Under the pieces are notes generated by a model that saw only the letters and a program-made list of their open reading frames with translations, had not been told where the DNA came from and did no database searches. Source: Bacteroidales bacterium (lineage in GTDB: Bacteria; Bacteroidota; Bacteroidia; Bacteroidales; WCHB1-69). Taken from it: 42,385 nucleotides of DNA. The stretch lies in the NCBI GenBank assembly GCA_017438945.1, contig JAFRUI010000002.1, positions 1 to 42,385 of the forward strand, written 5' to 3'. A program made the position numbers and the translations under genes. Below are positions 12,365-29,666 of this stretch, piece by piece (within the stretch, counting starts at the first letter, position 1; each line of letters starts with the position of its first letter).

Positions 12365-13534
12365 TTAGTTGCGTGCGGCTTGGATGACTACTTCGGCGGC
12401 CTTCTGTGAGGCGGAGCCGTTGCCCAAGCGAGTGTATAATTCCTCATATTGCGCCTTCATCGCGGCGATGTTCTGATCGTCTTCCGTGATGAGGCGCAAT
12501 TCTTTTTCTAATCGTTCGGTGTTGTAGTCGTGTTGGATGAGCTCGGTCACCACGGGGGCGTCCATGATGAGGTTGGGCAGCGAGATGTAGTTGATGCCCG
12601 ATATCAAGTGCTTGGCTATCAGGTAGGAGAGTTCGCTGCCAGCGTAGCAGACCACCTGCGGGGTGCCGATCATGGCGGTTTCGAGGGTGGCGGTGCCGGA
12701 GGCCACGATGGCGGCCTTGGCGTTGGCGAGTAGGGGATAGGTCTGGTCGCAGACGGTACGTATATTGACGTTTTGTAGAGACGTGCCATGGCGCGTCTCT
12801 ACGGGGCGGATATAGGGATTTATATGTTTGTCGTACAGTTCTTTCGGGAGCCAAGAGACGGTGGAAATCACGAATTGGTATTGTGGGAACCGTTCGACCA
12901 TCTGCAGCATCTGCGGGAGGATGGCGTTGATTTCCTGCTTGCGGCTGCCGGGAAGCAACGCGATGATCTCTTTGTCTTCTAATTTGTTAATTGTCTTGAA
13001 GTTGCGGACATCCTCGCGTTCGAGTAGGTCGCGGCTGACGGCATCTAACAGCGGATGCCCCACATAGTGTACGTCCATGCCGTGCTTGGCGTAGAAATCC
13101 TTCTCGAAGGGCAGAATGACCATCATTTCATCGACATCGCGCTTGATTTGCTTGATGCGGCCTTTCTTCCACGCCCAAATCTGGGGCGAAATGTAGTAAA
13201 CGACCTTGATATGGTGTTGTTTGGCGAATTCGGCGATGCGCAGGTTGAAGCCGGGAAGATCGACCAGCACGAGCACGTCGGGTTTCCAGTCGAGGATGTC
13301 GGCTTTGCAGCGTTTCATGTTGCCGAGAACATCTTTCAGGTGCACGAAAACCTCCCAGAACCCCATGTAGGCCATGTCGCGGTAGTGGATGAGCAGCTCG
13401 GTGCCGGCGGAGCGCATCAAGTCACCGCCGCAGCCACGAAACTGAGCTGCAGAATCTTTCTCCCGTATGGCTTTGATGAGGTTGGAGGCGTGCAGGTCGC
13501 CTGACGCCTCCCCGGCCACGATATAATATTTCAT
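12365..13534 (-). CDS. lpxB: Lipid-A-disaccharide synthase
   Basis: A GT19 glycosyltransferase that joins UDP-diacylglucosamine and lipid X into the lipid A disaccharide at the inner membrane. The N-terminal AGEASGDLHASNLI motif and the C-terminal VASGTATLETAMIGTPQVVCY motif are intact, and 389 residues is normal. I start at ATG 13534, since the TTG two codons upstream has no merit. The ATG is 7 bp behind the YqeY stop, so the two form an operon. A 28-bp palindrome (12775-12802) lies inside the gene and encodes VETRHGTSLQ, in a variable region between the IRPx segment and the NVNIRTV strand. The rest of the gene looks undamaged. Confidence 0.95.
   Translation of the reverse strand: MKYYIVAGEASGDLHASNLIKAIREKDSAAQFRGCGGDLMRSAGTELLIHYRDMAYMGFWEVFVHLKDVLGNMKRCKADILDWKPDVLVLVDLPGFNLRIAEFAKQHHIKVVYYISPQIWAWKKGRIKQIKRDVDEMMVILPFEKDFYAKHGMDVHYVGHPLLDAVSRDLLEREDVRNFKTINKLEDKEIIALLPGSRKQEINAILPQMLQMVERFPQYQFVISTVSWLPKELYDKHINPYIRPVETRHGTSLQNVNIRTVCDQTYPLLANAKAAIVASGTATLETAMIGTPQVVCYAGSELSYLIAKHLISGINYISLPNLIMDAPVVTELIQHDYNTERLEKELRLITEDDQNIAAMKAQYEELYTRLGNGSASQKAAEVVIQAARN
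12775..12802. repeat. 28-bp palindromic element inside lpxB (copy 1)
   Basis: The arms GTAGAGACGTGCCA and TGGCGCGTCTCTAC are complementary except for one G-T pair. Read on the lpxB strand it gives V-E-T-R-H-G-T-S-L. The outer nine bases of each arm (GTAGAGACG) are the same as in the copies at 23024 and 29427; only the centre differs, and it differs symmetrically apart from one base. Confidence 0.85.
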
Positions 13535-13541
13535 CGGCAAA

Positions 13542-13994
13542 CTATTGGGCCAAAAGCCGTTTCACGATGTCGGACACCTGCTTGTTGTCGGCCTTGCCGG
13601 CAAACGTCTTGGTGGCCATGCCCATCACCTTGCCCATGTCTTTCATGCCGCTGAAGCCGTTGTCGGCGATGATGCCTTTGATTGTCGCTTCAACCTCCTC
13701 AGGGGAAAGCATTTGCGGAAGGTAGGCCTGGATGATGTCAAGCTGGAACTGTTCCTCGGCAGCCAAATCCTCGCGGTTTTGTGCCTTGTAGGTCTCCGCC
13801 GATTCCTGGCGTTGTTTCACCAATTGTTTCAGAATCTTGATTTCGGACTCCTCGTCAAGGTCCCCGCCACCGCCCTTTTGGGTTTTGGCTAACAGAATGG
13901 CGGATTTCACAGCGCGTAAAGCGTTGAGTTTCTGAGATTCACGGGCCAGCATCGCGGCTTTGATGTCTTCGTTGATTTTTTGCTCTAATGCCAT
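13542..13994 (-). CDS. GatB/YqeY domain protein
   Basis: The 150-residue protein matches YqeY, a stand-alone relative of the tRNA-binding tail domain of GatB: MALEQKINEDIKAAM, LNALRAVKSAIL, RQESAETYKAQNREDLAAEE, YLPQMLSPEEVE, DMGKVMG and a C-terminal VSDIVKRLL. The chosen ATG at 13994 gives the usual family length; a longer frame would overlap the promoter region. It precedes lpxB with 7 bp between them. The physiological role of YqeY is not settled. Confidence 0.92.
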   Translation of the reverse strand: MALEQKINEDIKAAMLARESQKLNALRAVKSAILLAKTQKGGGGDLDEESEIKILKQLVKQRQESAETYKAQNREDLAAEEQFQLDIIQAYLPQMLSPEEVEATIKGIIADNGFSGMKDMGKVMGMATKTFAGKADNKQVSDIVKRLLAQ

Positions 13995-14029
13995 AATGAT
14001 TGCTTTTTTAGTTTTAGGAAACAATGCGG

Positions 14030-14037
14030 CAAAAGTA
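14030..14037 (-). promoter_or_regulatory. -7 promoter box (TACTTTTG) for yqeY-lpxB
   Basis: TACTTTTGC on the minus strand lies 36 bp before the YqeY ATG and fits the TAnnTTTG consensus. Confidence 0.55.
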
Positions 14038-14066
14038 CATAAAATTTGTGTATCTTGCCCTCTTCT

Positions 14067-17027
14067 TTACAGCACTGTCACACTCCCGCTGATGCGGTAG
14101 GGCTTGCCATTGTGGTCGGTGCAGTGGATGACGTAGTTGTAAACCGTGTTGGGAATTATTTTGCCGTTTTTGGTGCCGTCCCATCGGAAATTCTTGTCTT
14201 CGGAGGCGTAAACGAGCTCTCCCCAGCGATTGTAGATGGCAATGTGGAAGGTCACGATCTGGTTGCGGTCGCGTTCGGTCAAGGCAAAACAGTCGTTGAG
14301 GCCATCGGAGTTGCCTGGGGTGAAAGCGTTGGGTAGGGTGAGTGAGGGCGGGCAGAACGGGACGAGGACGGTGGCGGTGCGTTCGCAGGCGTAGTTAGAG
14401 GCAACCACCGTGTAGTAACCGCTCCGGGTCACAAAAATGCTGCTCCCCGTCTCTCCGGTACTCCACAGATAGGTGTCGAAATTGCCATCGACGGAAAGAG
14501 TCGTCTCCTCGGTGAGGCAGAAGTCTGGATTCGAAGAGGTTGTGTGCAAGGTGGTGTCGACCACGGTGAGATGCAGGGTCACCACACTGTCGCATTCGTG
14601 GGATGACACGAAAGTCTTACTGTAAGTTCCGGATTTGGCAAAGATTTCATTTCCCCAGCGATAAGGGCCGCAGGATGTTGCCTCCACCTCGGTTTCGGAA
14701 GGGTGCCCGATGTTGAGTCGCAGCGTGAGCACGCTGTCGCAGCCGCGCGAGTTAGTATAGGTGCGGGTGTACTCGCCACTTTCGGTGTAAGTCTCCCCCT
14801 CCCAGAAAAATTGCTCGCAGGCGGTCACTTCAGTATGCTCTGTTGTCGATGGGTGAATGGTCAGGCTCAGGGTCACTATGCTGTCGCAACCGTTTTGGGC
14901 TGTGAGAGTGCGGGTAGTGGAATAAAGGTCGTTCACTCCCATGTCGGCGGCGGCGATGTGGAAGTCGTAACCGTTGTAGTCCGTGCCGGCACAAACCTCA
15001 TCGTTAACGCTCGTGGTGATGGCTGCGCTTTCCTGTACCTCCACGGTGTCGCTGCTCTGGCAGAGGATTTCCCCGCTCTTTATGACACGCGCGGACAACG
15101 AATAGACACCCGGGTCGGAGACCGATATGGCCGCCGTGGTGGCTCCGGTGTTCCAAAGATAGTTGTAGGCGTTGTTGGGATTGTCTGGTGTCAGCGTCAC
15201 GGAGTGACCGTTGCAGATTTTTCGGCTGTCACCAAGTGATACCTCTGGCCAAGCATGTGTGACAACATGCACGGTGGTGTCGTACCGGCATCCGAATTCA
15301 TCAACGAGGTTTATGGTAAATGGTTGGCTACCAGGGGTCTGCGGAATCAGTGTGGTCTCATCAATGACTTGATCTCCAGTGAAGTACAAAGAGTCGATGT
15401 TGATTGAGTATTCCCAGGTGCTCGGCAGCAGGTTCGGGTCAAGCGCCAGCTCCCATTCCACAATATAACCGTTGTCTTCTTGAATCATATCCTGCACTTG
15501 AATATACCAGTTGCCATTCAACGGACAGCCAATCAAGGTGTTGAAATTCTGGTAGGGATGATAGATTTGTGTCATTTCGGCCACATTGGAAGAATCCACG
15601 CTGTAGGAGTGTGTGTTGTTTCCGAAATACATGAAGTTGGAGTCGTCCCAATGGGGGTTATAATGGCTATGGAAATTTTCGGTCTCGAAGCAGCATCCGT
15701 TAGCGGCGGCATATTGGAATCCAAGAGTGTTGTTGTTGGACCAGATGTAGTTCCAGGGATCTCCCATTGGATTTAGTGAGGGAGAGCAGCCGCCGCCGTC
15801 GGGCCGACAGGCGCTTCCCATGTTGACCCGGAAATATTGCATGCTCCCACCCCAAAGAGTCTGATGGTTTGGGTTGGGAAGGATGGTGCTGGAACTACCG
15901 TTAGGACAGTAAATGTCTATTTTCAGGTCCTCAATGGCGGAATGTTCCATCTTGATGCGCACGTAGAGGATGTCGTTGGCGCTGTTGATCGTGGCACCCG
16001 GGGGAAATTCCGAGAAGGTAACGTTGGAACGGTAGTAAATGCCGTAGGGCGGACAGTAATTGCCGTCAGGGAGAAAGACAGTGTCGTTGACGATAAGGGA
16101 GGCTTGTTGCGAGTGCCCGACTGTCTTCAGAACGATTTGGTTGGTGTCCTCATATCCGTATGTGGGAGAGATGGACTGTCCAGTACACAGTTCGGGGAGC
16201 GTGGCGAGGTGTTTCACCGGATTGGCGGAGACGCGCACGCGAAATGTGACGGGCTGCGTGGCTGGGCATTGCAGCGTGTCTTTTGCCGTGACGACCACCT
16301 CGTATCCCTTACCAGCTGTAAACACGTGGGTGATCTCGTGCATTCCGGCGCCGATGAGGGTGGTGTCGGAACCCAAATTCCATGTGAAAACCGTGGTGGC
16401 GTCGCTTTGACTATATCCCGCCCCAGGCTGATAGATCCCGTTCACGGACAGATGCACTTCCTCGTTTGGACAGAGGTCAATATAGGGGTAGGGGTCGTCA
16501 GGATGCAGTGATGGAACATGTGAGCATCCGGCTTGGTCCAGGGTGATGTTGAAAGGGTGGCATGGAGCCACACATGTGGCATGCAGCGCAAAACCGGCCC
16601 CGTGGTTGTTGCCGAAAAGTGTTATGAAATAAGAGGACTTGAATCGCAGGGTAAGAGCACCCGAGGCATTGCTCTCCGAAGCCATGTAGATGTTGTTATA
16701 GTTGATGTAAGTGTAGTTTGAGTTGTTGATTACGGCTAAAGGGGTGCCTGTAGCCGTGGTTCCGTCGTAGATGTATAGCGTGTCATTGTGGTGGATATCT
16801 ATACTGGAGATTTCGATCGCTATGCGTCCGCTGCTGGCATTCGGGTGGATGGTCAAGGTGTGATTGTTTAGCGGTCCGTATGCCCCTGTAGGACCTCCTT
16901 CATCGTAAATGTTGAAGTCACAGCCAGTTATGCTGGAAGTACTCCCCATATTTATACTTGTCTGCGCGTATGAGGATAGACAGCACAATCCAATAATAGC
17001 TATATATAAAAACGCAGATTTTTTCAT
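14067..17027 (-). CDS. Large secreted protein with CUB-like, P-type and T9SS type B (gliding-motility) C-terminal domains
   Basis: The 986-residue protein has a signal peptide (MKKSAFLYIAIIGLCCLSSYA). A CUB-like module follows (residues about 25-150, with HNDTLYIYDGTT). Then comes a PKD-like segment, a proprotein-convertase P-type β-jelly roll (about 340-540, with VRIKMEHSAIEDLKIDIYCPNG and GNWYIQVQDM) and a series of repeats with conserved C-x-x-x-x-F/Y-W and CDSVVTLxLTV. The tail is the gliding-motility-associated C-terminal domain: LPNAFTPGNSDGLND, then IYNRWGELVYAS, RWDG and the final VTVL. That domain directs type IX secretion and cell-surface attachment. No protease domain is seen although P domains normally accompany one. 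Confidence 0.88.
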   Translation of the reverse strand: MKKSAFLYIAIIGLCCLSSYAQTSINMGSTSSITGCDFNIYDEGGPTGAYGPLNNHTLTIHPNASSGRIAIEISSIDIHHNDTLYIYDGTTATGTPLAVINNSNYTYINYNNIYMASESNASGALTLRFKSSYFITLFGNNHGAGFALHATCVAPCHPFNITLDQAGCSHVPSLHPDDPYPYIDLCPNEEVHLSVNGIYQPGAGYSQSDATTVFTWNLGSDTTLIGAGMHEITHVFTAGKGYEVVVTAKDTLQCPATQPVTFRVRVSANPVKHLATLPELCTGQSISPTYGYEDTNQIVLKTVGHSQQASLIVNDTVFLPDGNYCPPYGIYYRSNVTFSEFPPGATINSANDILYVRIKMEHSAIEDLKIDIYCPNGSSSTILPNPNHQTLWGGSMQYFRVNMGSACRPDGGGCSPSLNPMGDPWNYIWSNNNTLGFQYAAANGCCFETENFHSHYNPHWDDSNFMYFGNNTHSYSVDSSNVAEMTQIYHPYQNFNTLIGCPLNGNWYIQVQDMIQEDNGYIVEWELALDPNLLPSTWEYSINIDSLYFTGDQVIDETTLIPQTPGSQPFTINLVDEFGCRYDTTVHVVTHAWPEVSLGDSRKICNGHSVTLTPDNPNNAYNYLWNTGATTAAISVSDPGVYSLSARVIKSGEILCQSSDTVEVQESAAITTSVNDEVCAGTDYNGYDFHIAAADMGVNDLYSTTRTLTAQNGCDSIVTLSLTIHPSTTEHTEVTACEQFFWEGETYTESGEYTRTYTNSRGCDSVLTLRLNIGHPSETEVEATSCGPYRWGNEIFAKSGTYSKTFVSSHECDSVVTLHLTVVDTTLHTTSSNPDFCLTEETTLSVDGNFDTYLWSTGETGSSIFVTRSGYYTVVASNYACERTATVLVPFCPPSLTLPNAFTPGNSDGLNDCFALTERDRNQIVTFHIAIYNRWGELVYASEDKNFRWDGTKNGKIIPNTVYNYVIHCTDHNGKPYRISGSVTVL

Positions 17028-17058
17028 GAAATCATACCTTACTATATTTTAAAACGTG

Positions 17059-17066
17059 CAAAAATA
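17059..17066 (-). promoter_or_regulatory. -7 promoter box (TATTTTTG), leftward
   Basis: Leftward box 31 bp before the start of the T9SS-type protein gene, in the 102-bp divergent intergenic region. Confidence 0.5.
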
Positions 17067-17086
17067 TAAAAAAACTACGTAATTGC

Positions 17087-17094
17087 TATCTTTG
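17087..17094 (+). promoter_or_regulatory. -7 promoter box (TATCTTTG), rightward
   Basis: Rightward box 35 bp before the porin ATG. The two divergent boxes are 20 bp apart, so polymerase binding at one could hinder the other. Confidence 0.6.
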
Positions 17095-17129
17095 CATAAA
17101 TTTTTTTCCAGCGTAATTGTTTTGATAAT

Positions 17130-18305
17130 ATGTTGAATATGTTAGCTTTATGTTTTGGGATACGGCGTGTTTTGTCGAAAAGGGCCACCTTTGTTGCTTT
17201 TTTGTGCCTGCTTTTCCTCGTTCCGTGTGTGAAGGCGCAGCAGGACTCCATTGTTCCCGCGTCCAAGCAAAGACGAGACTGGAAACTCAGTGACTATCTG
17301 CAGGTTCACGGTTTTGTGGATACACAGTACGGCCACGATTGGCAGCGCGAGGACAACGGCACGCTGGTGCAGAGCGATGTCATCATGTTGCGCCGTGCCC
17401 GGTTTGATTTTTCCGGGCGTTTCCATCCGATGATAGATTTCCGTTTGCAGGCGGATATGGCTTTCACCCCGCGTCTGCTCGATGCATGGCTGCGGGTGAA
17501 ATTCTGCAAGTATGCCCATCTTTGGATCGGGCAGATCAAGACCCCTTACACTATGGACAACTTCCTGTCGCCGTTGGACTTGGAGTTCGTTGAACTGTCG
17601 CAGTCGGTTGCGGCGTTGGCCGGATTTGTGGATGTTTCTGGCATTCCCGAATATGCCAACGGTCTGGAAATCGGCGCGATGCTGTCGGGCACTTTGGCGG
17701 ATTACAAGCGCGGCGACGAGCGTATCCCGATTCTGAACTACTATGCCGGCGTTTTCGGTGGCGCTGGTATCAACATCCGCAAGGATAACTTGAGCAAGGA
17801 TTTCTCGGCACGGCTGGACTTCTACCCGTTTGTGAAGGATTTCCGGCTGTCGGGATCGGTTTATTACGGTAACTACCAGCTCTACAAAGAACGTAACGCA
17901 CCGCGCAATCGCTGGTCGGCGGGCGCGGAATACCTCGGCAAGCACTGGACGGCCCGTGCCGAGTACCTGCAGGGCACCACGGGCATCGCCGAGGACGACC
18001 CGATGACAGTCGATTCGGTGTATTTGGTGAAGACGCGGGGACTCTACGCTTTTGTCGGATACTGGTTCTACATGGGGTGGGGGAGCAAGAGTAACGTGCA
18101 GCAGCGCATACGCCCGTTGTTCCGTTACGACTACTATGTCCGCGACCGGCAGATTCCGGAATCCACCGCGCACTATTTCTCCTTCGACCTCGAATGGTGG
18201 CCCGAGGAGCACGTGCGCGTCCACCTCGACTACACACTCAAGCGCCGTGCCGCCTACGAGAAGTTGGGGCATTCGCTGGCGGCGAAAGTCTCGGTGAGGT
18301 TTTGA
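17130..18305 (+). CDS. OprO/OprP-like phosphate-selective porin family protein
   Basis: The 391-residue protein has a signal peptide ending near FLVPCVKAQ (residue 35) and then the porin O/P pattern: LQVHGFVDTQYGHDW, LRRARFDFSGRFHPMIDFRLQADM, LDAWLRVKFCKYAHLWIGQIKTPYTM, followed by alternating amphipathic strands and a terminal aromatic residue (VSVRF) as expected for BAM-inserted barrels. Family members form anion channels in the outer membrane; substrate preference in Bacteroidetes is not established. The signal peptide is unusually long because of an N-terminal extension; ATG 17130 or 17139 are both possible. Confidence 0.85.
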   Translation: MLNMLALCFGIRRVLSKRATFVAFLCLLFLVPCVKAQQDSIVPASKQRRDWKLSDYLQVHGFVDTQYGHDWQREDNGTLVQSDVIMLRRARFDFSGRFHPMIDFRLQADMAFTPRLLDAWLRVKFCKYAHLWIGQIKTPYTMDNFLSPLDLEFVELSQSVAALAGFVDVSGIPEYANGLEIGAMLSGTLADYKRGDERIPILNYYAGVFGGAGINIRKDNLSKDFSARLDFYPFVKDFRLSGSVYYGNYQLYKERNAPRNRWSAGAEYLGKHWTARAEYLQGTTGIAEDDPMTVDSVYLVKTRGLYAFVGYWFYMGWGSKSNVQQRIRPLFRYDYYVRDRQIPESTAHYFSFDLEWWPEEHVRVHLDYTLKRRAAYEKLGHSLAAKVSVRF

Positions 18306-18381
18306 GAATGTTGAATGCTGAATGGTTTAAGTAAATAGTCAATTTTTAGAATTAGCGTAACAATCATATTAAAGGATTTTG

Positions 18382-18389
18382 TATCTTTG
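18382..18389 (+). promoter_or_regulatory. -7 promoter box (TATCTTTG) of the DPP4 gene
   Basis: TATCTTTGC lies 20 bp before the ATG at 18410. Confidence 0.6.
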
Positions 18390-18409
18390 CAGCTTAAAAT
18401 TTTTCGCCG

Positions 18410-20716: not shown

Positions 20717-22927
20717 ATGGAAAATCTTGTAAAGTATGTATGGATCGTGTTTTGCGCATCCATTGTCGCGTTGGGTTTCGCGTTCTTCTTCTATCGCAGA
20801 ATGCTGAAAGAAGACGAAGGAACTCCCACCATGCGTGAAATCGCCTCGCACGTCCGCAAGGGCGCTATGGCCTACCTGAAACAGCAGTATAAGGTGGTGA
20901 CCATCGTGTTCATCGTCTTGGCCATCCTGTTCTTCATCATGTCGATCTTCGACCTGCAGAACGGCTGGGTATGGTTCGCTTTCCTGACCGGCGGTTTCTT
21001 CTCCGGTTTGGCCGGCTTCCTCGGCATGAAGACCGCCACCTACGCCTCCGCACGTACCGCCAACGGCGCTCGCCAGAGCCTCAACAAGGGCCTGCAGATT
21101 GCCTTCCGCAGCGGTGCCGTCATGGGCTTGACCGTCGTCGGCCTCGCGCTGCTCGACGTCTCCGTGTGGTTCTTCATCCTCGACCACTTCATCCCCGAGG
21201 AACACCATCTGGTGATCATCACCACCACGATGCTGACCTTCGGCATGGGTGCCTCCACGCAGGCGCTGTTCGCACGTGTGGGCGGCGGTATCTACACCAA
21301 AGCCGCTGACGTGGGTGCTGACCTGGTCGGCAAGACCGAGTACAACATCCCCGAGGACGACCCGCGCAACCCCGCCACCATCGCCGACAATGTGGGCGAC
21401 AACGTGGGTGACGTGGCTGGTATGGGCGCCGACCTGTACGAGTCCTACGCTGGTTCCATCCTCTCCACCATGGCCCTCGGCGCGGCTGCTTTCGCCACCC
21501 TCGGCGCCGAGATGCAGATGCGCTCCATCCTCGCCCCGATGCTGATTGCCGCCGTCGGCGTGGTTCTCTCCGTGATTGGTATCTTCATGGTTCGCACGAA
21601 GGAAGATGCCACGATGACCGAGCTGCTCAAGGCCCTGAGCCGCGGCACCAACACTGCCGCCTGCCTCATCGCCGTGGCCACGTTCTGCATCATGTATGTG
21701 CTGTTCAAAGATTCTACCGACATCGTGTGGTGGCAGGTCTCCCTTTCAGTCGTTGTGGGTCTGCTCGCCGGCGTGATTATCGGTAAATCAACGGAATACT
21801 ACACTTCCCAATCCTTCAAACCGACGCAGAAGGTCGCTGAGGCATCCCAGACGGGTCCTGCCACGGTCATCATCTCCGGTATCGGCTTGGGTATGATTTC
21901 CACGGTCATCCCGGTGCTCACCATCGGTGTGGCTATCATCCTCGCTTTCTTGTGCGCTAACGGTTTCCAGATCGAGTTCAATGCCATCAACCTTTCCAAG
22001 GGCCTTTACGGTATTGGTATCGCAGCTGTGGGTATGCTTTCCACGCTGGGTATCACCTTGGCTACCGACGCTTACGGTCCTATCGCCGACAATGCCGGTG
22101 GTAACGCCGAGATGAGCGGTTTGGAACCTGAAGTTCGTAAACGCACTGACGCTCTCGACGCGCTGGGTAACACCACCGCTGCCACGGGTAAGGGCTTCGC
22201 CATCGGTTCTGCCGCTCTGACCGCCCTCGCACTGCTCGCTTCCTACGTGGAAGAGATCAAGATCGCCCTCGTGCGTATCGGTACTGACACCCTCGACCTT
22301 GGCAACCGCGTCGTCGAAACCGCTCAGGCATCCCTGATCGACTTCATGGAATATTACAATGTTTCTTTGATGAACCCGAAAGTGCTCGTGGGTGTCTTCA
22401 TCGGCTCCATGATGGCCTTCCTGTTCTGCGGTCTCACGATGAACGCTGTGGGTCGCGCCGCTCAGAAGATGGTGGAGGAAGTCCGCCGTCAGTTCCGCGA
22501 AATCAAGGGCATCCTCACCGGTGAGGGTACTCCGGATTACGCTCGTTGCGTGGCCATCTCCACGAAAGGCGCTCAACGCGAAATGCTGCTCCCGTCCATC
22601 CTCGCCATCTTGGCTCCCATCTGCACGGGCTTGATTCTCGGTGTGGCTGGTGTGCTCGGTTTGTTGGTCGGCGGTCTCGGCGCCGGTTTCGTGTTGGCTA
22701 TCTTCATGGCCAACGCCGGTGGTGCTTGGGACAACGCCAAGAAGTATGTCGAGGAAGGCAACTTCGGCGGCAAGGGTTCTGACAACCACAAAGCTACCGT
22801 CGTGGGCGACACCGTGGGCGATCCCTTCAAGGACACCTCCGGTCCGTCTCTGAACATCCTCATCAAGCTGATGAGCATGGTGAGCATCGTGATGGCCGGT
22901 CTGACCGTGGCGGTGCACTTGCTGTAA
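20717..22927 (+). CDS. hppA: Membrane-bound ion-translocating pyrophosphatase
   Basis: The 736-residue integral membrane enzyme with about 16 helices couples PPi hydrolysis to H+ and/or Na+ export. The catalytic segment [37 protein letters not shown] and the C-terminal [11 protein letters not shown] and [19 protein letters not shown] segments are intact. The site that separates subclasses reads [10 protein letters not shown]: alanine, not lysine, after GNTT is the mark of the K+-dependent class, which includes Na+ and dual Na+/H+ pumps of Bacteroides. It is a single gene followed by a terminator. Codon usage is strongly biased to C/G-ending codons, suggesting high expression. Confidence 0.97.
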
Positions 22928-22976
22928 TAATAGTGAACAGTGAGCAGTGATCTGTGAACTGTGATTTGTAAATAGA

Positions 22977-23007
22977 ACGGGGAGTCGGGAGATTCCCCGT
23001 TTTTTTG
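22977..23007 (+). terminator. Intrinsic terminator of hppA
   Basis: ACGGGGA (22977-22983) pairs with TCCCCGT (22994-23000), followed by a run of T, about 50 bp after the hppA stop. Confidence 0.85.
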
Positions 23008-23023
23008 TTGTGTAACTGAAATT

Positions 23024-23051
23024 GTAGAGACGTTTCATGAAACGTCTCTAC
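23024..23051. repeat. 28-bp palindromic element, intergenic (copy 2)
   Basis: A perfect palindrome with half-site GTAGAGACGTTTCA, base-for-base identical to the copy at 29427-29454 and sharing its outer nine bases with the copy at 12775. It lies between the hppA terminator and the ROK promoter. Confidence 0.9.
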
Positions 23052-23091
23052 TGCGGTGATTTTATCTGTCTGTGTATATTCGTAATTTATG

Positions 23092-23099
23092 TACCTTTG
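23092..23099 (+). promoter_or_regulatory. -7 promoter box (TACCTTTG) of the ROK gene
   Basis: TACCTTTGC lies 39 bp before ATG 23139, and downstream of any earlier in-frame ATG, which supports the start chosen for the ROK gene. Confidence 0.55.
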
Positions 23100-23138
23100 C
23101 GCCCTGTAATCCCTATTCCTTTACAAGAATCACGATTT

Positions 23139-24083
23139 ATGAACCATCTTGCCATAGGTATTGACATAGGCGGCACAAACACGGATATCGCATTGGTGAA
23201 TCCGGACGGCAAAGTGCTGCAACACAAGATCTTGAAGACTGCCGAATACGAAGACCACCATCCTTACATCCTTGACATGGCCGGTGCCATCCGTGCGATA
23301 CTGTCGGAGAACGGCCTCACGGAGGTTGCGGGCGTGGGCATCGGTGCCCCCAATGCCCATTTCGATACGGGCTGCATCGGGGCGGACACCGCCAACCTGC
23401 GGATGAAGAAGGAGATCCCGATATGTGAGATGCTGCAGCGGATGCTGAACATCCCGGTGACGCTCTCCAACGACGCGGATGCTGCTGCCCTCGGAGAGCA
23501 CATCTACGGTGGCGCGAAGCTGATGCAGCATTTCGTGACCATCACCCTCGGTACGGGCGTCGGCAGCGGCATCTTCGTCGATGGCCGCCTTATCCACGGA
23601 CACGGTTGCATGGCCGGCGAACTCGGACACGCTATCGTCAACCCACTGAGCGACCGGCTCTGCAGCTGCGGTCGCAAGGGCTGTCTGGAGATGTACGCCT
23701 CGGCGCGCGGTATCTGTCAGACCTACAAGGAATTGGCGGCCAAAGGAGACCTGCGGGACAACTTCTCTGGCAGCGAACTCACCTGCAAGGATGTGGGCGA
23801 GATGGCCGTCGCGGGCGACCCGCTGGCACTCAAGACTTACGATGTCACGGCCTACTGGCTCGCCATCGGCATGGCCAACGCCGCGTCGTTCTGCTCCCCG
23901 GAGGCCTTCTTCCTCATGGGCGGTCCCACCCGCGCCGGCGAAGCCCTGTTGAAACCGCTTCGCCGATATTTCGCCGAGAACCTGCTATACATCTACAAAG
24001 ATCGTATCTCCATCCAATTGTCTGAACTGCAATCCAACGACGCGGCCGTGTTGGGCGCTGCGGCGTTGATACATTTGAAATAA
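23139..24083 (+). CDS. ROK-family sugar kinase (glucokinase-like)
   Basis: The 314-residue protein starts with the ATP-binding phosphate loop AIGIDIGGTNTDIAL. The sugar-binding Asp is in VTLSNDADAAALGE, and TLGTGVGSGIFVDG follows. The ROK zinc site GH.IV...CSCGRKGCLEMYAS is complete. Such enzymes phosphorylate glucose or related hexoses in the cytosol; the exact sugar cannot be read from sequence. No sugar-operon partners lie next to it. A YfcC-type transporter follows after 175 bp of repeat DNA, so co-transcription is doubtful. Confidence 0.9.
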   Translation: MNHLAIGIDIGGTNTDIALVNPDGKVLQHKILKTAEYEDHHPYILDMAGAIRAILSENGLTEVAGVGIGAPNAHFDTGCIGADTANLRMKKEIPICEMLQRMLNIPVTLSNDADAAALGEHIYGGAKLMQHFVTITLGTGVGSGIFVDGRLIHGHGCMAGELGHAIVNPLSDRLCSCGRKGCLEMYASARGICQTYKELAAKGDLRDNFSGSELTCKDVGEMAVAGDPLALKTYDVTAYWLAIGMANAASFCSPEAFFLMGGPTRAGEALLKPLRRYFAENLLYIYKDRISIQLSELQSNDAAVLGAAALIHLK

Positions 24084-24088
24084 ATGCA

Positions 24089-24184
24089 AGGGTGTATGCG
24101 ATATGGCGTGTACAAATGGGCGTATGCAAAAATGGATGTACGCGAAAAAGGGCGTACGCGAAAAAGGGCGTATGCGATACGCCC
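24089..24184. repeat. Cluster of GGGCGTATGCGATACGCCC-type hairpins and degenerate units
   Basis: Four to five degenerate units around GGGCGTAYGCG are spaced 15-25 bp apart; the last (24166-24184) is a perfect 8-bp stem with a 3-base loop. The same motif occurs at 26728-26786. Confidence 0.75.
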
Positions 24185-24250
24185 ATACAATAACCTACAA
24201 TAACCCACAACCAATAACCCTCAATAACCAATAACCCATAACCAATAACC
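24185..24250. repeat. Word array (CAATAACC)
   Basis: About eight tandem, slightly varying copies of an 8-base word (CAATAACC/CCATAACC) end just before the transporter start and make up its 5' leader. Confidence 0.75.
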
Positions 24251-24258
24251 ATTACGAA

Positions 24259-25863
24259 ATGCGTACCAAATTCAACATCCCCCACACCTTCACCATCGTT
24301 TTCTCCATTATCGCCGTGTGCGCTGTCCTGACCTGGATTGTGCCGGGCGGACAGTTTGACCGTCAGACCGTTACAGTGGATGGGCACGAGCGCAACGTGG
24401 TCGTCGCTGACTCGTACCACCGGGTGGATCCCGCGCCGCAGACCTGGCAGGTATTCACCGCCTTCTTCAAGGGGTTCGAGCGCACCTCGGGTATCATCGT
24501 CTTCATCCTGATGATCGGCGGGGCTTTCTGGGTCATGAACGAGACCGACGCCATCAATCGGGGCATCTGGCTCTTCCTCGACAAAACCCAGCGGATGCAG
24601 GAGCACGCCTTCTTCCGAAAGGTCGGGGTCAACAACCTGCTGATTATCGCCATTATGCTGATGTTCAGTCTTTTCGGGTCGGTGTTCGGGATGAGCGAGG
24701 AGACTATCGCCTTCATTGTGGTCTTCGTGCCGTTGGCGGTTTCCATGGGCTACGACTCCATCACTGGGGTGCTGATGTGCTACGTGGCCGCGCATGTGGG
24801 TTTCGCGGGCGCGATGCTCAACCCCTTCACCATCGGTATCGCACAAGGGTTGTCCGGGCTGCCCACCTTTTCGGGCATCGGTTACCGGTTGATTTGTTGG
24901 ATTATTTTGACAGTTATCGCCATTGTTTTCACCCTGATATACGCCAACTACATCAAGAAGAATCCTGAAAAGTCGCTGACGTATAATATCGACAGCTATT
25001 GGCGTGAGAAGACCGCCGATACGGAGGACAAACACGAGCTGGTGAAGTCGGGTAGGGCGGCGTGGATTGTATATGGCTGTATATCTGCCATATTGCTCTA
25101 TTGTGCCGTCACGATGCCCTACACGGACATCACCGTGGGATTGGGCAGCCGTCACGTGGTGCTGTTCCCGATTTGGGCGGCGTTGTTCGTCCTCATCGGC
25201 TTCTTCGCCACCCGCAAGTCCGTCCACCACCTGATCCTCACCATCCTGCTGTTCACAATTTTGATTTTGGTGACGGGTGTGTTGGGCTACGATTGGTACG
25301 TGATGGAGATTGCGGGTCTCTTCTTCGCGATGGGTATCTCCGCCGGCATCGCCTTCGGGATGAAATTCGACAAGGTGGTCCGCAGTTTCTTGGAGGGCTG
25401 CAAGGACATCCTCGTGGCCGCGCTGGTCGTCGGTCTGGCCGGTGGCATCATCATCATTCTGGAAGACGGCCATATCATCGACACGATTCTCTACGCGGTG
25501 GCGCAGGGGATGCAGAATGCCGGCAGAATCGGCAGCACCGCCACCATGTACGTGATGCAGAACCTGCTTAACCTGATCATCCCGTCGGGTTCCGCGAAGG
25601 CCGCACTCACCATCCCGATGATGGCGGAGTGGTCCGATCTGATGAACATTCCGCGTCAGCTGACGGTGTTGGCATTCCAGTTCGGCGACGGATTCACCAA
25701 CATGATCACGCCTACTTCCGGTGTGCTCATCGGCGTGCTTGGCGTGGCCCGAATCCCGTATTCTACTTGGTTCCGCTTCATCTGGAAGTTCCTGTTGGCG
25801 CTCATCATCCTCGGATTCCTGCTGTTGCTTCCGCCGTTGTTCATGCCGTTCGCGGGATTCTGA
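24259..25863 (+). CDS. YfcC/DcuC-family transporter
   Basis: The 534-residue protein has roughly 12-13 membrane helices. The start MRTKFNIPHTFTIVF and the motif TWIVPGGQFDRQ are typical of the YfcC branch of the ion-transporter superfamily that includes C4-dicarboxylate and arginine/ornithine carriers. Conserved loops (GMSEETIAF, HVGFAGAMLNPFTIGIAQGL and, near the C-terminus, NLIIPSGSAKAALTIPMM and FGDGFTNMITPTSG) are all present. It acts in the inner membrane, probably in amino-acid or carboxylate transport; the substrate is not known. The leader is a repeat array rather than a recognisable promoter. Confidence 0.88.
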   Translation: MRTKFNIPHTFTIVFSIIAVCAVLTWIVPGGQFDRQTVTVDGHERNVVVADSYHRVDPAPQTWQVFTAFFKGFERTSGIIVFILMIGGAFWVMNETDAINRGIWLFLDKTQRMQEHAFFRKVGVNNLLIIAIMLMFSLFGSVFGMSEETIAFIVVFVPLAVSMGYDSITGVLMCYVAAHVGFAGAMLNPFTIGIAQGLSGLPTFSGIGYRLICWIILTVIAIVFTLIYANYIKKNPEKSLTYNIDSYWREKTADTEDKHELVKSGRAAWIVYGCISAILLYCAVTMPYTDITVGLGSRHVVLFPIWAALFVLIGFFATRKSVHHLILTILLFTILILVTGVLGYDWYVMEIAGLFFAMGISAGIAFGMKFDKVVRSFLEGCKDILVAALVVGLAGGIIIILEDGHIIDTILYAVAQGMQNAGRIGSTATMYVMQNLLNLIIPSGSAKAALTIPMMAEWSDLMNIPRQLTVLAFQFGDGFTNMITPTSGVLIGVLGVARIPYSTWFRFIWKFLLALIILGFLLLLPPLFMPFAGF

Positions 25864-25865
25864 CC

Positions 25866-26087
25866 AATGCTGAATGTTGAATGTTGAATGTTGAATGCTG
25901 AATGCTGAATGTTGAATGCTGAATGCTGAATGTTGAATGCTGAATGCTGAATGTAGAATGGAAACGCATTATCTTGCTTCTTCACTTAAGATTTGCCTTG
26001 TCCATAACTGTTCACTGTTCAACACTGTTCAACACTGTTCACTGCTCACTAATCACTGATCACTAATCACTGTTCACTGCTCACTAA
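25866..26087. repeat. Two word arrays (TGAATGCTGAATGT and CACTGTTCA)
   Basis: 25866-25960 is a run of 8-base words TGAATGCT/TGAATGTT. 26005-26087 is a run of CACTGTTCA/CACTGATCA words, the inverse of the AGTGAAC array at 20598. Between them is a short unique stretch. Confidence 0.8.
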
Positions 26088-26106
26088 AAATAATGTAACC
26101 TTTTCG

Positions 26107-26114
26107 TATTTTTG
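26107..26114 (+). promoter_or_regulatory. -7 promoter box (TATTTTTG) of the sigma factor
   Basis: TATTTTTGC lies 26 bp before the ATG at 26141. Confidence 0.6.
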
Positions 26115-26140
26115 CATCCTAATATCAGAGGCGAGAACGA

Positions 26141-26653
26141 ATGAAGAAAGAAGCATTCTGGGCGGAGCAATACCGACGCCACATCGGGAAGATGGTGGGC
26201 GCGTGCTACCGGTATGTCGCCGACTGGGATCTCGCGGAGGACTTGGCGCAGGACGCGTTCCTCGCCGCGATGGAGAAAGCCAGTACCTTCCGCGCTTTCG
26301 GCAGTTTCGAAGGCTGGCTGAAGAAGATCGCCGTCAACCAAGCGCTGATGCACGTGCGCGACTGTCCGGAGATGGTGGAGTGGGACGAGAACCTTCACAG
26401 TCAAGAAGTGGAGGAGATTGCCGACGACCCGGAGCTTTCGCGAACGGATTTCACGCAGGAGGAACTGTTGGAGGTCGTCGGGAAGCTGCCCGTGAAGCAG
26501 CGCACGGTCTTCAACCTCTACGCGGTGGAGCACTACTCCCACTCGAAAATAGCCGAAACGCTCGGCATCTCCGTCGCCAACTCGAAGGTTCTGCTTTCCC
26601 GTGCGAGGGCGGAGCTGCAGCAGCGGCTGAAGGCGGTGGCGAGGAAACGATGA
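26141..26653 (+). CDS. ECF-type RNA polymerase sigma factor
   Basis: The 170-residue protein has sigma region 2 (residues about 10-75, YRYVADWDLAEDLAQDAFLAAMEKASTFRAFGSFEGWLKKIAVN, given here only as the region around DWDLAEDLAQDAF) and region 4 (about 110-165, LPVKQRTVFNLYAVEHYSH and the helix-turn-helix KIAETLGISVANSKVLLSRA). Region 3 is missing, as in all ECF sigmas. Genes of this type in Bacteroidetes are usually followed by a one-TM anti-sigma protein and an outer-membrane protein; here those appear at 29118 and 29670, after four small lipoprotein genes. It probably controls the downstream envelope genes. Confidence 0.93.
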   Translation: MKKEAFWAEQYRRHIGKMVGACYRYVADWDLAEDLAQDAFLAAMEKASTFRAFGSFEGWLKKIAVNQALMHVRDCPEMVEWDENLHSQEVEEIADDPELSRTDFTQEELLEVVGKLPVKQRTVFNLYAVEHYSHSKIAETLGISVANSKVLLSRARAELQQRLKAVARKR

Positions 26654-26712
26654 TACGATGAGGCGATGAGGCGATGATGCGATGAAAGACGATGAAGGGC
26701 GATGATGCGATG
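26650..26712. repeat. Word array (CGATGA)
   Basis: Degenerate tandem words GATGCGATGA/GACGATGA; the same words recur at 27870-27890, 28959-29000 and, inverted, at 34321-34380. Confidence 0.75.
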
Positions 26713-26727
26713 TGTGAATCGGTAGGG

Positions 26728-26786
26728 GCGTATCGCATACGCCGTGTAAATAAAAACGCGTATCGCATACGCCGTGTAAATAAAAA
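26728..26786. repeat. Two tandem 29-bp GCGTATCGCATACGC units
   Basis: The two units (26728-26756 and 26758-26786) are identical; each begins with a hairpin GCGTAT-CGC-ATACGC and ends GTGTAAATAAAAA. They form the leader of the next lipoprotein gene. Confidence 0.85.
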
Positions 26787-26811
26787 ATTGTCAAATTAAA
26801 ACGATATTGAT

Positions 26812-27297
26812 ATGAAAAACATCATTAAAACTGCTGTAATTGCCGCATTAGCGGTTCTGGCAACCGCCTGCAACAAACCCGAAAAGCAAGCGCTCGCCGG
26901 CACGTGGCAGTGGTACTGCACCTCCGGCGGCATCGCGGGAGTCAACTATACACCAGAAAGCGAAGGCTTCGAAGCCGAACTCGTCTTCAAGGGCAACCAA
27001 TTCACCTTCTACAAGGATGGTAAAAAGGTTACTTCAGGCACGTATCACATTGATTATGATGTAGATGAAGTTATGTATACCAATAAAAGTGACAACGACG
27101 AGGCCTTCTACTCCTGGTTCAACCTGAACATACCAGAGACGCAATGCAAGAAGATAGCAGAAGCCACCAACGGCAAAGTGGCACCTCCAATGAAAAGTTT
27201 CGCCGTCATCAGCTACGATGACCGATATGGAGTGCAAGTACTTTCCATGAGCGAAAATTTCTATGACGGATTCAGTTACACTTTCATAAAACGCTAA
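26812..27297 (+). CDS. Small lipoprotein A, lipocalin-like (paralogue of the gene at 28019)
   Basis: The 161-residue protein has a lipoprotein signal peptide with lipobox LATAC (Cys20). The mature part begins LAGTWQW and continues with alternating β-strands (FEAELVFKGNQFTFYKDGKKVTSGTY...), the look of lipocalin-like DUFs in Bacteroidetes. It shares most of its first 80 residues with the gene at 28019, including GGIAGVNYTPESEGF, and then diverges. It probably sits at the inner or outer membrane. It is the first gene after the sigma factor and is likely in its regulon; the function is unknown. Confidence 0.8.
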   Translation: MKNIIKTAVIAALAVLATACNKPEKQALAGTWQWYCTSGGIAGVNYTPESEGFEAELVFKGNQFTFYKDGKKVTSGTYHIDYDVDEVMYTNKSDNDEAFYSWFNLNIPETQCKKIAEATNGKVAPPMKSFAVISYDDRYGVQVLSMSENFYDGFSYTFIKR

Positions 27298-27301
27298 TAT
27301 T

Positions 27302-27880
27302 ATGAAAGCATCATTCCTTAAACAGCCCCGAAGGGATAAGCTTTCAGCAACCCCACACAAACGTAGCGCAGTGGCCGCTATCTTCCTGACAGCTGTCACC
27401 CTAACACTGGCATTCCTAACCACCGCCTGCGATCCCGCCTATACCGAGGATGTGGCCATCCGCAATGCTTCAAAGCATTACGTCACCATCATCTCTCATG
27501 ACGCGATGCTCAACGATTCCACATTGGTGCCCTCTAATAAAGTCTATACGTTAGCCCCCAACGAAGAAATCGTTATTAAACAGCTGGGTGGCCTCGGCAG
27601 TGCCGGTTTCGACGCGGGTGTAAACTATTTCAAGACATTTTATGGCGATTCGGTGAAAATGAGTTTCGGAGGTTTCGGAGAAGACGGACTTGTGCGCGAA
27701 AAAAAGTATTATGCTTGGGAGACCGATGGTATCAGTCCTTACAATTTCCAATCTGCGAAATACACCTACGAAGAGAAGAGGAACACTGGGCGTGTCTTTC
27801 ATGACCTGCCCTATTACGGCAAGCTTTCGTTCACCATCACGGACGAGCATTACGACGAGGCGATTACGATGAAGCGATGA
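27302..27880 (+). CDS. Lipoprotein with repeat-derived N-terminal extension
   Basis: The 192-residue protein has a lipobox LTTAC at about Cys43, preceded by an unusually long basic N-region (MKASFLKQPRRDKLSATPHKR). That N-region is encoded by CAGCCCCGAAGGGATAAG-like DNA resembling an interspersed repeat. No better start exists: the only later candidate is a GTG at 27371, which would leave no positive residues before the hydrophobic core. The mature part (VAIRNASKHYVTIIS, LAPNEEIVIKQLGGLG) suggests a β-sandwich. It starts 4 bp after the previous stop, so both are co-transcribed. Family unknown to me. Confidence 0.75.
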   Translation: MKASFLKQPRRDKLSATPHKRSAVAAIFLTAVTLTLAFLTTACDPAYTEDVAIRNASKHYVTIISHDAMLNDSTLVPSNKVYTLAPNEEIVIKQLGGLGSAGFDAGVNYFKTFYGDSVKMSFGGFGEDGLVREKKYYAWETDGISPYNFQSAKYTYEEKRNTGRVFHDLPYYGKLSFTITDEHYDEAITMKR

Positions 27881-27896
27881 GTGACGATGAATATAT

Positions 27897-27982
27897 GAGG
27901 GCTTGCAGGCCGTTAGGTCTGCAGGGCTCGGTAGAAACGACGGAGAAACGGTTGGTTCGCACGCCGTTAGGTGTGCGGGCAA
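27897..27982. repeat. 86-bp double-hairpin repeat, copy 1
   Basis: It contains two hairpins with the same core and different stems: TGCAG-GCC-GTTA-GGT-CTGCA and CGCAC-GCC-GTTA-GGT-GTGCG. It is identical over all 86 bases to 29007-29092, and in both places follows a lipoprotein gene and a CGATGA word array. Confidence 0.92.
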
Positions 27983-28018
27983 TTGACAAGAATAAGAGTA
28001 ATTCCAAAATATAACGAT

Positions 28019-28486
28019 ATGAGACAAACAATGAAATTCACAGCAGTCATTCTGCTGGCATTGCTGGCAACCGCCTGCAGCAAGCCTGAAAAACACGAGC
28101 TCGAAGGCACGTGGCAATGGACACGCACCTCCGGCGGCATCGCAGGAGTCAACTACACCCCTGAAAGTGAAGGTTTCAATGCTGAAATTGTCTTTAAAGG
28201 CAGCAAATTCACTTTTTACAAAGATGGGGAAAAAGTCACTTCTGGCTCTTATAGAATTGACGTATCAGACTGTCCTGAGGTTTTAACCGAGTGTGGCAAT
28301 GCAACGTCCTACGTGCTACGTCTTCCTGAAGAGCAGTGCGAGAAAATTGCGAAAGCTACAGATGGTAAAATAGTCGTAGTCCCATCAGGTAGCGCAATTA
28401 TCAATTCCTTTTCTAACGAAGTGTCTCTTACGCTATGGGACAATATGATTGATGGGTTTAGTAGTGCTTTTGTTAAAAAGAATTAA
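28019..28486 (+). CDS. Small lipoprotein B, lipocalin-like (paralogue of the gene at 26812)
   Basis: Started at ATG 28019 the protein has 155 residues, with lipobox LATAC and the same KPEKxxLxGTWQW...SGGIAGVNYTPESEGF...FTFYKDGxKVTSG core as lipoprotein A. The C-terminal halves differ strongly while the ends (DGFSxxFxK) match again. This is a tandem duplication with an unrelated lipoprotein gene in between. An upstream in-frame ATG lies inside the 86-bp repeat and is less likely. The next gene starts 17 bp after its stop. Confidence 0.78.
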   Translation: MRQTMKFTAVILLALLATACSKPEKHELEGTWQWTRTSGGIAGVNYTPESEGFNAEIVFKGSKFTFYKDGEKVTSGSYRIDVSDCPEVLTECGNATSYVLRLPEEQCEKIAKATDGKIVVVPSGSAIINSFSNEVSLTLWDNMIDGFSSAFVKKN

Positions 28487-28503
28487 TGTATAAAGCCAAA
28501 ACA

Positions 28504-28932
28504 ATGAAAAAGAATGCATTTATTGTTGTTGTTACAGGAATAATGGCTGTTGTGGCCACCATGGTCACGGTGTTCTCATCTTGTGACCGCCGGCAAAATC
28601 CCCAAAAGCTGACCGTTTCCGATAACGAGCTTTCAGCATGCCATGCGGGGGAGAAGTCGGAATTTCCAGATCCTATTTTTAATTATGGGCACGGCGAGCT
28701 CCAGATTATCCACGAGCTCATGCTCAATTGCGCCGCCTCGTCGGTGGATGTGGATGCTCATGTTGTGGACAATGAGATTGTTATCAACTATCTGGTGGAT
28801 GATAACATTTCGGCCAACTGTTTGTGCCCTAAGACGTTGGAATATACGCTTCACAATGTTCCAAGAGGAACCTATACCGTCATCATTACGATCGGTGAGG
28901 CGGAAATTTATCACCATACGGTCACTTTATAG
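28504..28932 (+). CDS. Small lipoprotein C
   Basis: From ATG 28504 the protein has 142 residues; another ATG at 28486 would overlap the preceding stop. The signal peptide MKKNAFIVVVTGIMAVVATMVTVFSSC ends in a lipobox (FSSC). The mature part, about 110 residues, is β-rich with a Cys pair and ends in the strand GEAEIYHHTVTL, recalling short Ig-like NVEALA-type lipoproteins. Probably co-transcribed with the gene before it. Function unknown. Confidence 0.7.
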   Translation: MKKNAFIVVVTGIMAVVATMVTVFSSCDRRQNPQKLTVSDNELSACHAGEKSEFPDPIFNYGHGELQIIHELMLNCAASSVDVDAHVVDNEIVINYLVDDNISANCLCPKTLEYTLHNVPRGTYTVIITIGEAEIYHHTVTL

Positions 28933-28958
28933 GTGTTTGTTGCGATGCCTTGTATTAG

Positions 28959-29000
28959 CGATGAAGCGATGAGACGATGAAGCGATGAGACGATGATGAC
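28959..29000. repeat. Word array (CGATGA)
   Basis: Five tandem 8-base words alternate CGATGAAG and CGATGAGA. They directly precede the second 86-bp repeat. Confidence 0.75.
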
Positions 29001-29006
29001 ATAGGA

Positions 29007-29092
29007 GAGGGCTTGCAGGCCGTTAGGTCTGCAGGGCTCGGTAGAAACGACGGAGAAACGGTTGGTTCGCACGCCGTTAGGTGTGCGGGCAA
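29007..29092. repeat. 86-bp double-hairpin repeat, copy 2
   Basis: Identical to 27897-27982. It lies 25 bp before the start region of the anti-sigma-like gene. Confidence 0.92.
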
Positions 29093-29117
29093 ATAATAAA
29101 TGCCAAATAACAATGAA

Positions 29118-29666
29118 ATGAAAAACAACAGAACAGATATTGACCGCCTTTTCGAGAAAGGGGTGTCGGAGGTGTCGCGTGCGCCACGGAAAACGCTTTC
29201 GGACGAGCAGATCAAAACCGCCGCTGTCGCCTCAAAATCAGGTGCGGGCGTGTGGCTGCTGTCGCATGCCAAGGAGATGCTGATTGGGGTGGTTTCCTTC
29301 GTTACGGGCTGTCTCGTGACCTTTGCCGTTCTGCACTATGTCGCTCCGAAACCTTCGGAACCGCAAGCGGGAGAGAATGTTAATGTTGATACGATAGCAT
29401 TGCCGTCAGAATCTGAAAGGGTGGTTGTAGAGACGTTTCATGAAACGTCTCTACAGAATGAAGATCATTCCGTCCCCTCATCTGCAAATCCTACGTCCAA
29501 CATCACACGTCATACGTCACACCACCAAACTCCTGAGTCTCAAGTCCAAACTCCTGAGTCTCAAGAACCCGTTGTAGTGAAGAAGACCGTCGTACAGCGT
29601 GATACAGTCCATGTGAAGGAGACCGTTGTGGTGAAAGACACCGTGTATATGCTTAATGAAGAATGA
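29118..29666 (+). CDS. One-TM anti-sigma-like membrane protein
   Basis: The 182-residue protein has a cytosolic N-terminus (DIDRLFEKGVSEVSRAPRKTLSDEQIK), one membrane helix (about 57-75, IGVVSFVTGCLVTFAVLHY) and a long outer part that is low-complexity and ends in dyads VVVKKTVVQRDTVHVKETV, then VVKDTVYM. This is the geometry of Bacteroidetes anti-sigma partners. A 28-bp palindrome (29427-29454) inside the gene adds [10 protein letters not shown] to the outer part. ATG 29100 is an alternative start six codons earlier. The next gene begins 4 bp after the stop. The anti-sigma role is inferred from context and topology only. Confidence 0.7.
   Translation: MKNNRTDIDRLFEKGVSEVSRAPRKTLSDEQIKTAAVASKSGAGVWLLSHAKEMLIGVVSFVTGCLVTFAVLHYVAPKPSEPQAGENVNVDTIALPSESERVVVETFHETSLQNEDHSVPSSANPTSNITRHTSHHQTPESQVQTPESQEPVVVKKTVVQRDTVHVKETVVVKDTVYMLNEE
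29427..29454. repeat. 28-bp palindromic element inside the anti-sigma-like gene (copy 3)
   Basis: Base-for-base identical to the intergenic copy at 23024-23051. Read in the gene's frame it gives V-E-T-F-H-E-T-S-L, the same frame as in lpxB. Confidence 0.92.

Follow-up and report, generated by a model that had tools for sequence, protein, structure and literature searches.

The window analysed here, a 42,385-nucleotide stretch of a Bacteroidales bacterium (GenBank assembly GCA_017438945.1, contig JAFRUI010000002.1, positions 1 to 42,385), carries three copies of a short palindromic element with the pattern GTAGAGACG-N10-CGTCTCTAC. These copies, to which no strand is assigned, lie at positions 12775-12802, 23024-23051 and 29427-29454, exactly where an earlier note made from the sequence alone had placed them. 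All three match the pattern exactly, compared with a mean of 0.02 copies in 100 shuffles of the window when up to 3 mismatches were allowed. The first copy is located in lpxB (12365-13540, minus strand; TIGR00215 and PF02684), the gene for lipid-A-disaccharide synthase. Its core, TGCCATGGCG, corresponds to CGCCATGGCA on the gene strand, and the element is read in frame as VETRHGTSLQ. The second copy, with the core TTTCATGAAA, is intergenic. The third has the same core and encodes, in frame, a ten-residue peptide within an open reading frame (ORF) of 188 amino acids (29100-29666, plus strand). The label "anti-sigma-like" previously given to this ORF could not be confirmed: its product matched nothing in NCBIfam and matched Pfam only below the threshold, leaving no family match above the cut-off. 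A scan of the window against Rfam gave zero matches at the gathering threshold.

The second and third copies are identical letter for letter, and the first shares with them the nine outer bases of each arm, as the earlier note had also described, together with a central CATG. Because of one T/G mismatch in its core TGCCATGGCG, the copy in lpxB is an imperfect palindrome. As single-stranded DNA, the element is predicted to fold into one stem of 13 pairs (-12.3 kcal/mol, z -6.7), in which GTAG is paired with CTAC. The single palindrome ends in a GT[AG]G-type 5' foot and a C[TC]AC-type 3' foot. The intergenic copy has a counterpart in genome G013 and, with one mismatch, in G006; orthologous copies of the third were found in G013, G020 and G006 (2 mismatches in the last).

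We then considered how the element is read in genes. Frame 2 contains TAG in every case, and frame 3 contains TGA in TTTCATGAAA and a stop in some other cores too. Coding copies share a frame because stop codons leave only frames 1 and 3 open. Nine ORFs of the source genome read through a copy, eight in frame 1 and one (L006) in frame 3; ORFs L002, L009, L028, L036 and L040 were judged spurious by eye and left out of this count. The host genes encode LpxB, the 188-residue product of the window, LspA (L005), an A2M-family protein (L006), a protein of no family (L012), an M14 peptidase with a secretion tail (L030), two sigma-70 proteins (L032 and L033) and GH97 (L042). This list, from LpxB, LspA and A2M to the M14 peptidase, both sigma-70 proteins and GH97, bears out the idea of a dispersed element tolerated in frame in unrelated genes. 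In the sigma-70-like genes (L032:544-1641 and L033:1-1131), an intact copy was accompanied by apparently decayed ones (TVETCHGASPQ, VVETLHETC). Frame 3 was used in six of the nine genes that have an internal copy and match the model for REP-associated tyrosine transposases (RAYTs; REP, repetitive extragenic palindrome), namely, L138, L139, L146, L153, L161 and L168. The other three (L160, L174 and L159) use frame 1, and the ORF of L159 stops directly past the copy. Selection for one favored peptide was ruled out as the cause of the shared frame, as stop codons are enough to limit the frame and some genes use frame 3. The earlier note had stressed that the two coding copies of the window share a frame. 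VETRHGTSLQ and the peptide of the 188-residue ORF do so, with no sign of a favored peptide, and the frame bias that it had proposed to check amounts to the use of frames 1 and 3, frame 2 being barred by TAG.

The source genome assembly (1.86 Mb, 44 contigs, 63% complete) contained 41 exact copies of the element and 78 with up to 3 mismatches, versus 0 and 1, respectively, for a reversed control pattern. Most cores among the 41 copies were CGCCATGGCA (16, in either orientation) or TTTCATGAAA (13). T preceded 30 of the copies and A followed 23, and with these bases the element measures about 30 bp. The element was present in 42 of the 60 genomes searched (the source genome included). These were 34 of the 36 genomes of the genus, with up to 237 copies per genome, and 8 of 24 from the rest of the order. 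A promoter-like block at 23074-23100 (plus strand) is found again, at a distance of 22 bp, after certain other TTTCATGAAA copies; the conserved block, ending in TGTACMTTTGC, was seen in the window (23024-23100) and at L015, L291 and L292. At such places, the palindrome can belong to a larger, composite repeat.

Among host genes with an in-frame copy, lpxB is the only one for which an element-free orthologue was demonstrated. In a first comparison, 29 of 30 loci were parsed, with L097 left out. The full set consisted of the best 80 of 175 relatives plus the gene of the window (81 in all, of which 80 were parsed and L210 was later read as empty). The insert was found in 8 of the 81 and was lacking in 73. 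The outcome that the earlier note had named as refuting its reading, similar residues here in all LpxB orthologues, therefore did not occur in this set. Filled and empty alleles differed by 10 codons in the cleanest pairs, by 15 for the gene of the window and by 25 for that of G026. The pairs indicated a net gain of 30 bp, with no clear direct repeat of the kind that a target-site duplication, as in MITEs, would leave; element-free versions of other sites were not clean. In a sequence alignment with the solved LpxB 5w8s, a gap in the solved protein coincides with the insert position or lies close to it. Judged from these alignments, the element in LpxB is an insertion. At this single place, the cores CGCCATGGCA, TACCATGGTG, CGCCACGGCA and ATGTGCACAT and one degenerate core were found. 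The comparison of arms was made on the six of eight filled rows that fit the arm pattern (L177 and L180 were out) and is therefore biased to intact arms. The G026 allele (L178) shows an apparent tandem expansion of the left arm, giving ETRHEEMCHKETRHVETRHGTSLQ and 25 additional residues.

A second site, in the GH97 gene, showed turnover of the core in place. Of 30 loci, 24 were parsed (L358 and L360-L364 were left out), and 17 of these had a palindrome at the same codon. The ten cores that they carried comprise six clearly distinct kinds, three close variants of these kinds and one hybrid. Six of the remaining rows had no palindrome, and that of G033 had an apparent decayed remnant (VKTCDVNSLQ versus VETCHGASLQ). 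With the decayed row L349 excluded, the mean divergence over 136 pairs was 0.474 in the core and 0.019 in the arms, against 0.199 for the 300 nt of flanking sequence and 0.413 for its third codon positions. Arm codons differed in 0.068 of the pairs versus 0.399 for 55 flank codons with invariant residues. Five of these 55 were singly as conserved as the arm; for five drawn together, resampling gave a P value of 5e-5, a rough figure, as the rows are related to each other and were picked for bearing a palindrome. Protein-level selection does not explain the low variation of the arm codons. On the GH97 tree, 11 core changes are required among the palindrome-bearing rows. Between the source genome and G020, half of the core had changed at 6% flank divergence, with the arms unchanged, and between L338 and L339, 9 of 10 core positions had changed at 12% flank divergence. 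The palindrome-free genes L351, L352, L354 and L359 have a loop of nearly equal length (STIQQINNI or alike); the palindrome seems to replace this loop and not to lengthen it.

Other sites were surveyed by comparing copies of the source genome with three close relatives. This census covered 38 of the 41 copies, the three of the window being compared separately; 31 of the 38 had a usable place, and 78 of 79 regions were used (L328 ran into a contig end). The same element was found in 18 of the 78 comparisons, a change of the arm or of up to 2 core positions in 21 and another core in 10. When both flanks had to be at least 75% alike, the numbers were 13, 14 and 3, respectively. Copies at orthologous places thus show the conversion-like behavior that had been guessed from the window. 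In L278 and L279, orthologues of L013, the arms co-vary as well (GAAGAGACG..CGTCTCTTC and ATAGAGACG..CGTCTCTAT). We also looked for further copies of the cores seen at the GH97 site. The core of G011, GTGCATGCAC, occurred in 2 of the 60 genomes only, G011 (6 copies) and G029 (13 copies), and in the latter it is carried by the RAYT gene L146. G012 had 30 occurrences of TTGCRYGCAA and G028 had 4; in G027, this core was present solely at the GH97 site, as was YGCTGCAGCR in G006, whose assembly has 7% contamination. In total, further exact copies of the core were present in the genome for three of the five genome-core pairs tested.

RAYT genes of relatives were found with like-cored palindromes. 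Among 30 best-per-genome loci matching the RAYT model, which were not selected for palindromes, four (L138, L139, L146 and L153) had an internal, in-frame GTAGAGACG palindrome between the HUH and Tyr motifs, and the same four had an adjoining palindrome with the same core or one differing by one base. For L138 and L139, the adjoining copies are of the CGCCATGGCA type, on one side. Elsewhere in this unselected set, L131 was flanked on both sides, L137 and L143 had a copy upstream, and L148 had partial copies. L156, from a 20-locus set picked partly for nearby palindromes, had TTTCATGAAA copies on both sides. Twelve aligned RAYT-model proteins have the motifs MP[ND]H[ILV]H, WQ and YI..N in common; the subclass was assigned from such motifs alone. 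With the model NF047646 (cut-off 80), L138, L139, L156, L146, L153 and L163 scored 48 to 65 bits, below the cut-off, and L131 scored 83.6 bits with neighbors in frame included. The source genome has one full-length RAYT gene (L163) and a fragment (L162); inside L163 lies an apparently decayed copy with another core. Within the genus, G033, the genome with the apparent decayed GH97 site, is the only one with neither a palindrome nor a match to the Y1 or RAYT model. The IS200-type transposases of the source genome (L048 and L049, both above the NF033573 cut-off) were not favored as movers: a damaged copy lay near L048 only, 447 bp downstream. Among the 31 best Y1_Tnp loci (L048-L078), 3 contained a complete or nearly complete element at any position.

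Further palindromes were seen around RAYT-model genes. Those of other genera at L140:1698-1731, L144:1711-1743 and L145:1550-1588 had unrelated 33-nt palindromes lacking GTAG, inside and beside the ORF. Other families with feet at both ends (GTAGGGGCG and others) were present at L170, L172, L173 and L162, as well as at L124:18687 and L125:3085. Families of the GTAGGGGCG type seem to encode RAYT-linker peptides (VGANDYSPLP, VGATLVVA and RGDPRGRP).

Taken as sequence comparisons, these results establish the dispersal of the element, its in-frame insertion in LpxB, the presence of like-cored RAYT loci in relatives and, at fixed sites, a variety of cores between conserved arms. The reading that we favor, and consider somewhat better than an even bet, is a "double-foot" REP mobilized by RAYTs similar to TnpAREP subclass 2.4, seated in genes and having its cores rewritten in place. 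The element would be a short hairpin of about 30 bp, GTAGAGACG-core-CGTCTCTAC, with families differing in the 10-nt core, and its movers would be the RAYT HUH endonucleases of this Bacteroidales genus. Seating within a gene would be possible because the addition of about 30 bp leaves the reading frame intact, frame 1 being almost always free of stops and frame 3 for many cores. In a seated copy, the core of another copy would then take the place of the original one, with arms and flanks left as they were. We infer that the RAYT does this rewriting: it may cut a single strand at C|T in the CTAC foot of the element itself and join in another hairpin. Exchange by cutting and strand transfer could take place in this way because the double foot has CT in CTAC on either strand. 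In Escherichia coli, TnpAREP cleaves single-stranded DNA at a CT on either the 5' or the 3' side of the REP and depends on GTAG, which was shown to guide the cut in another TnpAREP (PMC8266576). A broader proposition, that REPs spread partly by cassette exchange, with an incoming RAYT/REP family overwriting resident cores and the GTAG/CTAC feet serving as exchange sites, is held more tentatively, a little short of even. The "mobile or gene-converting" element of the earlier note was largely the right idea as regards dispersal and conversion-like core change; its Rickettsia analogy and its argument from frame did not stand.

Several observations weigh against RAYT-driven rewriting. The whole case is comparative, and neither cutting nor exchange was observed. 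No RAYT carrying the two cores of the window was found in the source genome, which may be explained by its completeness of 63%. Palindromes were present in G010 and G035 without a match to the RAYT model, and the LpxB copy of G002 (L180) has decayed despite a RAYT (L153) in that genome. Palindrome counts correlated with the number of RAYT-model matches, which include IS200-type genes, with a rho of 0.66, falling to 0.33 (P of 0.05) after genome size was taken into account. In 29 of the 78 census comparisons, no matched palindrome was found in the relative, an upper bound since the script overlooks some palindromes visible in alignments. Finally, the cores of G027 and G006, of which no further copy was found in the genome, fit better with allele transfer than with rewriting by a resident family.

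Four other explanations were weighed; they overlap, and the probabilities attached to them are not required to sum to one. The main rival, though we regard it as unlikely, is RAYT-independent template switching or gene conversion, in which replication stalls at the hairpin and the 9-nt arms act as primers for synthesis on another copy. Near-invariant arms do bound the swapped part, and the hybrid core of G017 (TTTCATGGCG), half TTTCATGAAA and half TGCCATGGCG, switches at the CATG common to both parent cores. A 1988 review, to go by its title, asks whether REPs evolve by gene conversion. However, 9 nt is very short for conversion, like-cored palindromes are found at RAYT genes, and the only genome of the genus lacking both palindromes and RAYT matches has an apparent decayed site (a single case).

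Clearly less probable is a series of independent insertions and precise losses at fixed hotspots, with no rewriting. Palindrome-free orthologues exist at GH97 and at the sites of the source genome. On a tree made without the site, the filled LpxB rows require 5 changes, at least 3 of which are forced by well-supported branches, and the filled L181 is the sister of the empty L185 (support, 100/99). This explanation has difficulty with ten cores at an identical position of one GH97 codon and with the hybrid core, which suggests recombination within the element. Moreover, QNGN follows the element in four of the eight filled LpxB alleles (L176, L177, L180 and L181), whereas the nearest empty ones have QGHN or similar. 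With this motif common to half of the filled alleles, the LpxB site does not allow recurrent gain, loss and transfer to be distinguished.

Whole-allele exchange between species, by which the cores at one site would come from past long-tract transfers, is a shade less probable still. The single-copy cores in G027 and G006 speak for it, as do the incongruent states of LpxB and GH97. Transfer alone, however, makes no different cores on identical arms, and the divergence between L181 and L185 was nearly equal close to the LpxB site (0.10 to 0.15 within 60 nt) and farther away (0.10 to 0.13), so that no long imported tract is apparent there. Least probable of all, and improbable in our view, is inheritance of copies kept by selection on a local DNA or RNA hairpin with compensatory core changes: 42 of the 50 possible Watson-Crick pairs are formed in the ten GH97 cores (shuffled mean of 23.7 and maximum of 41 in 10,000 shuffles) and a few paired changes occur at some sites (L004 and L013), but the hairpin lies in unrelated genes and intergenic places, the G011 core is confined to two genomes, and L338 and L339 differ at nearly all core positions over little-diverged flanks. 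Very small dispersed hairpins with compensatory changes were reportedly described by Elhai and colleagues in 2008 as small dispersed repeats (SDR) of cyanobacteria.

Whether REPs spread by transposition or by conversion has long been an open question. A rare clock for it is offered by coding copies: flank codons date the separation of the genes, yet the arms stay almost unchanged and the core turns over. The GH97 and LpxB sites provide allelic series for testing models of REP spread. If cores are indeed rewritten in place, short peptides of conserved enzymes are under continual editing by a mobile DNA, and if cassette exchange is true, such enzymes carry a codon block rewritten repeatedly in frame without new insertion.

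We finally compared the element with known systems. As text in the literature, GTAGAGACG gave no bacterial-repeat title among the matches listed. In-place core change was absent from the titles and abstract openings among the matches listed for REPs, RAYTs, dispersed palindromes, gene conversion and rumen Bacteroidales; within the limits of those matches, in-place rewriting inside coding sequence appears to be a new behavior. The earlier note had likened the element to Rickettsia palindromic elements, which it resembles in its in-frame insertion in unrelated genes. These are CGTC tagged, and CGTC repeats have no dedicated transposase according to the available part of one report (PMC3733652), whereas the present element has GTAG/CTAC ends and, in relatives, RAYT loci. 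A Rickettsia-type element was ruled out by these ends and this link, and the closest known relative is a RAYT-associated double-foot REP instead. With GTAG REPs and REPINs, as the available text of two reports presents them (PMC3733652 and PMC3116915), it shares the GTAG tag, dispersed hairpins, the RAYT link and REPs inside ORFs. In those, one end has an unpaired GTAG and REPINs occur as doublets, whereas here GTAG and CTAC are paired in a single element; a classical REP or REPIN was ruled out because GTAG lies inside the stem and not unpaired beside the hairpin.

In the available sections of Quentin et al. 2018 (PMC6006769), double-foot REPs belong to TnpAREP subclass 2.4, found in Cyanobacteria, Bacteroidetes and others. 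The RAYT gene itself is described there as containing REPs in frame, as a rule in the stretch from the HUH to the Tyr motif, and such internal REPs are termed unique to subclass 2.4. The differences that we noted from the subclass as presented in those sections are that DH replaces NH in 4 of our 12 aligned RAYTs and HLH occurs in 3 of the 12, and that the source genome is without a RAYT carrying the cores of the window. Core rewriting at orthologous sites in other protein genes, seen here, is not described in those sections. The likenesses are GTAG at the 5' end and CTAC at the 3' end, a Bacteroidetes host, many dispersed copies, RAYTs with NH[IFV]H, WQ and YIxNNP, and, in relatives, a REP both flanking and in frame within the RAYT gene. 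By its anatomy, the element is a member of the published double-foot REP kind.

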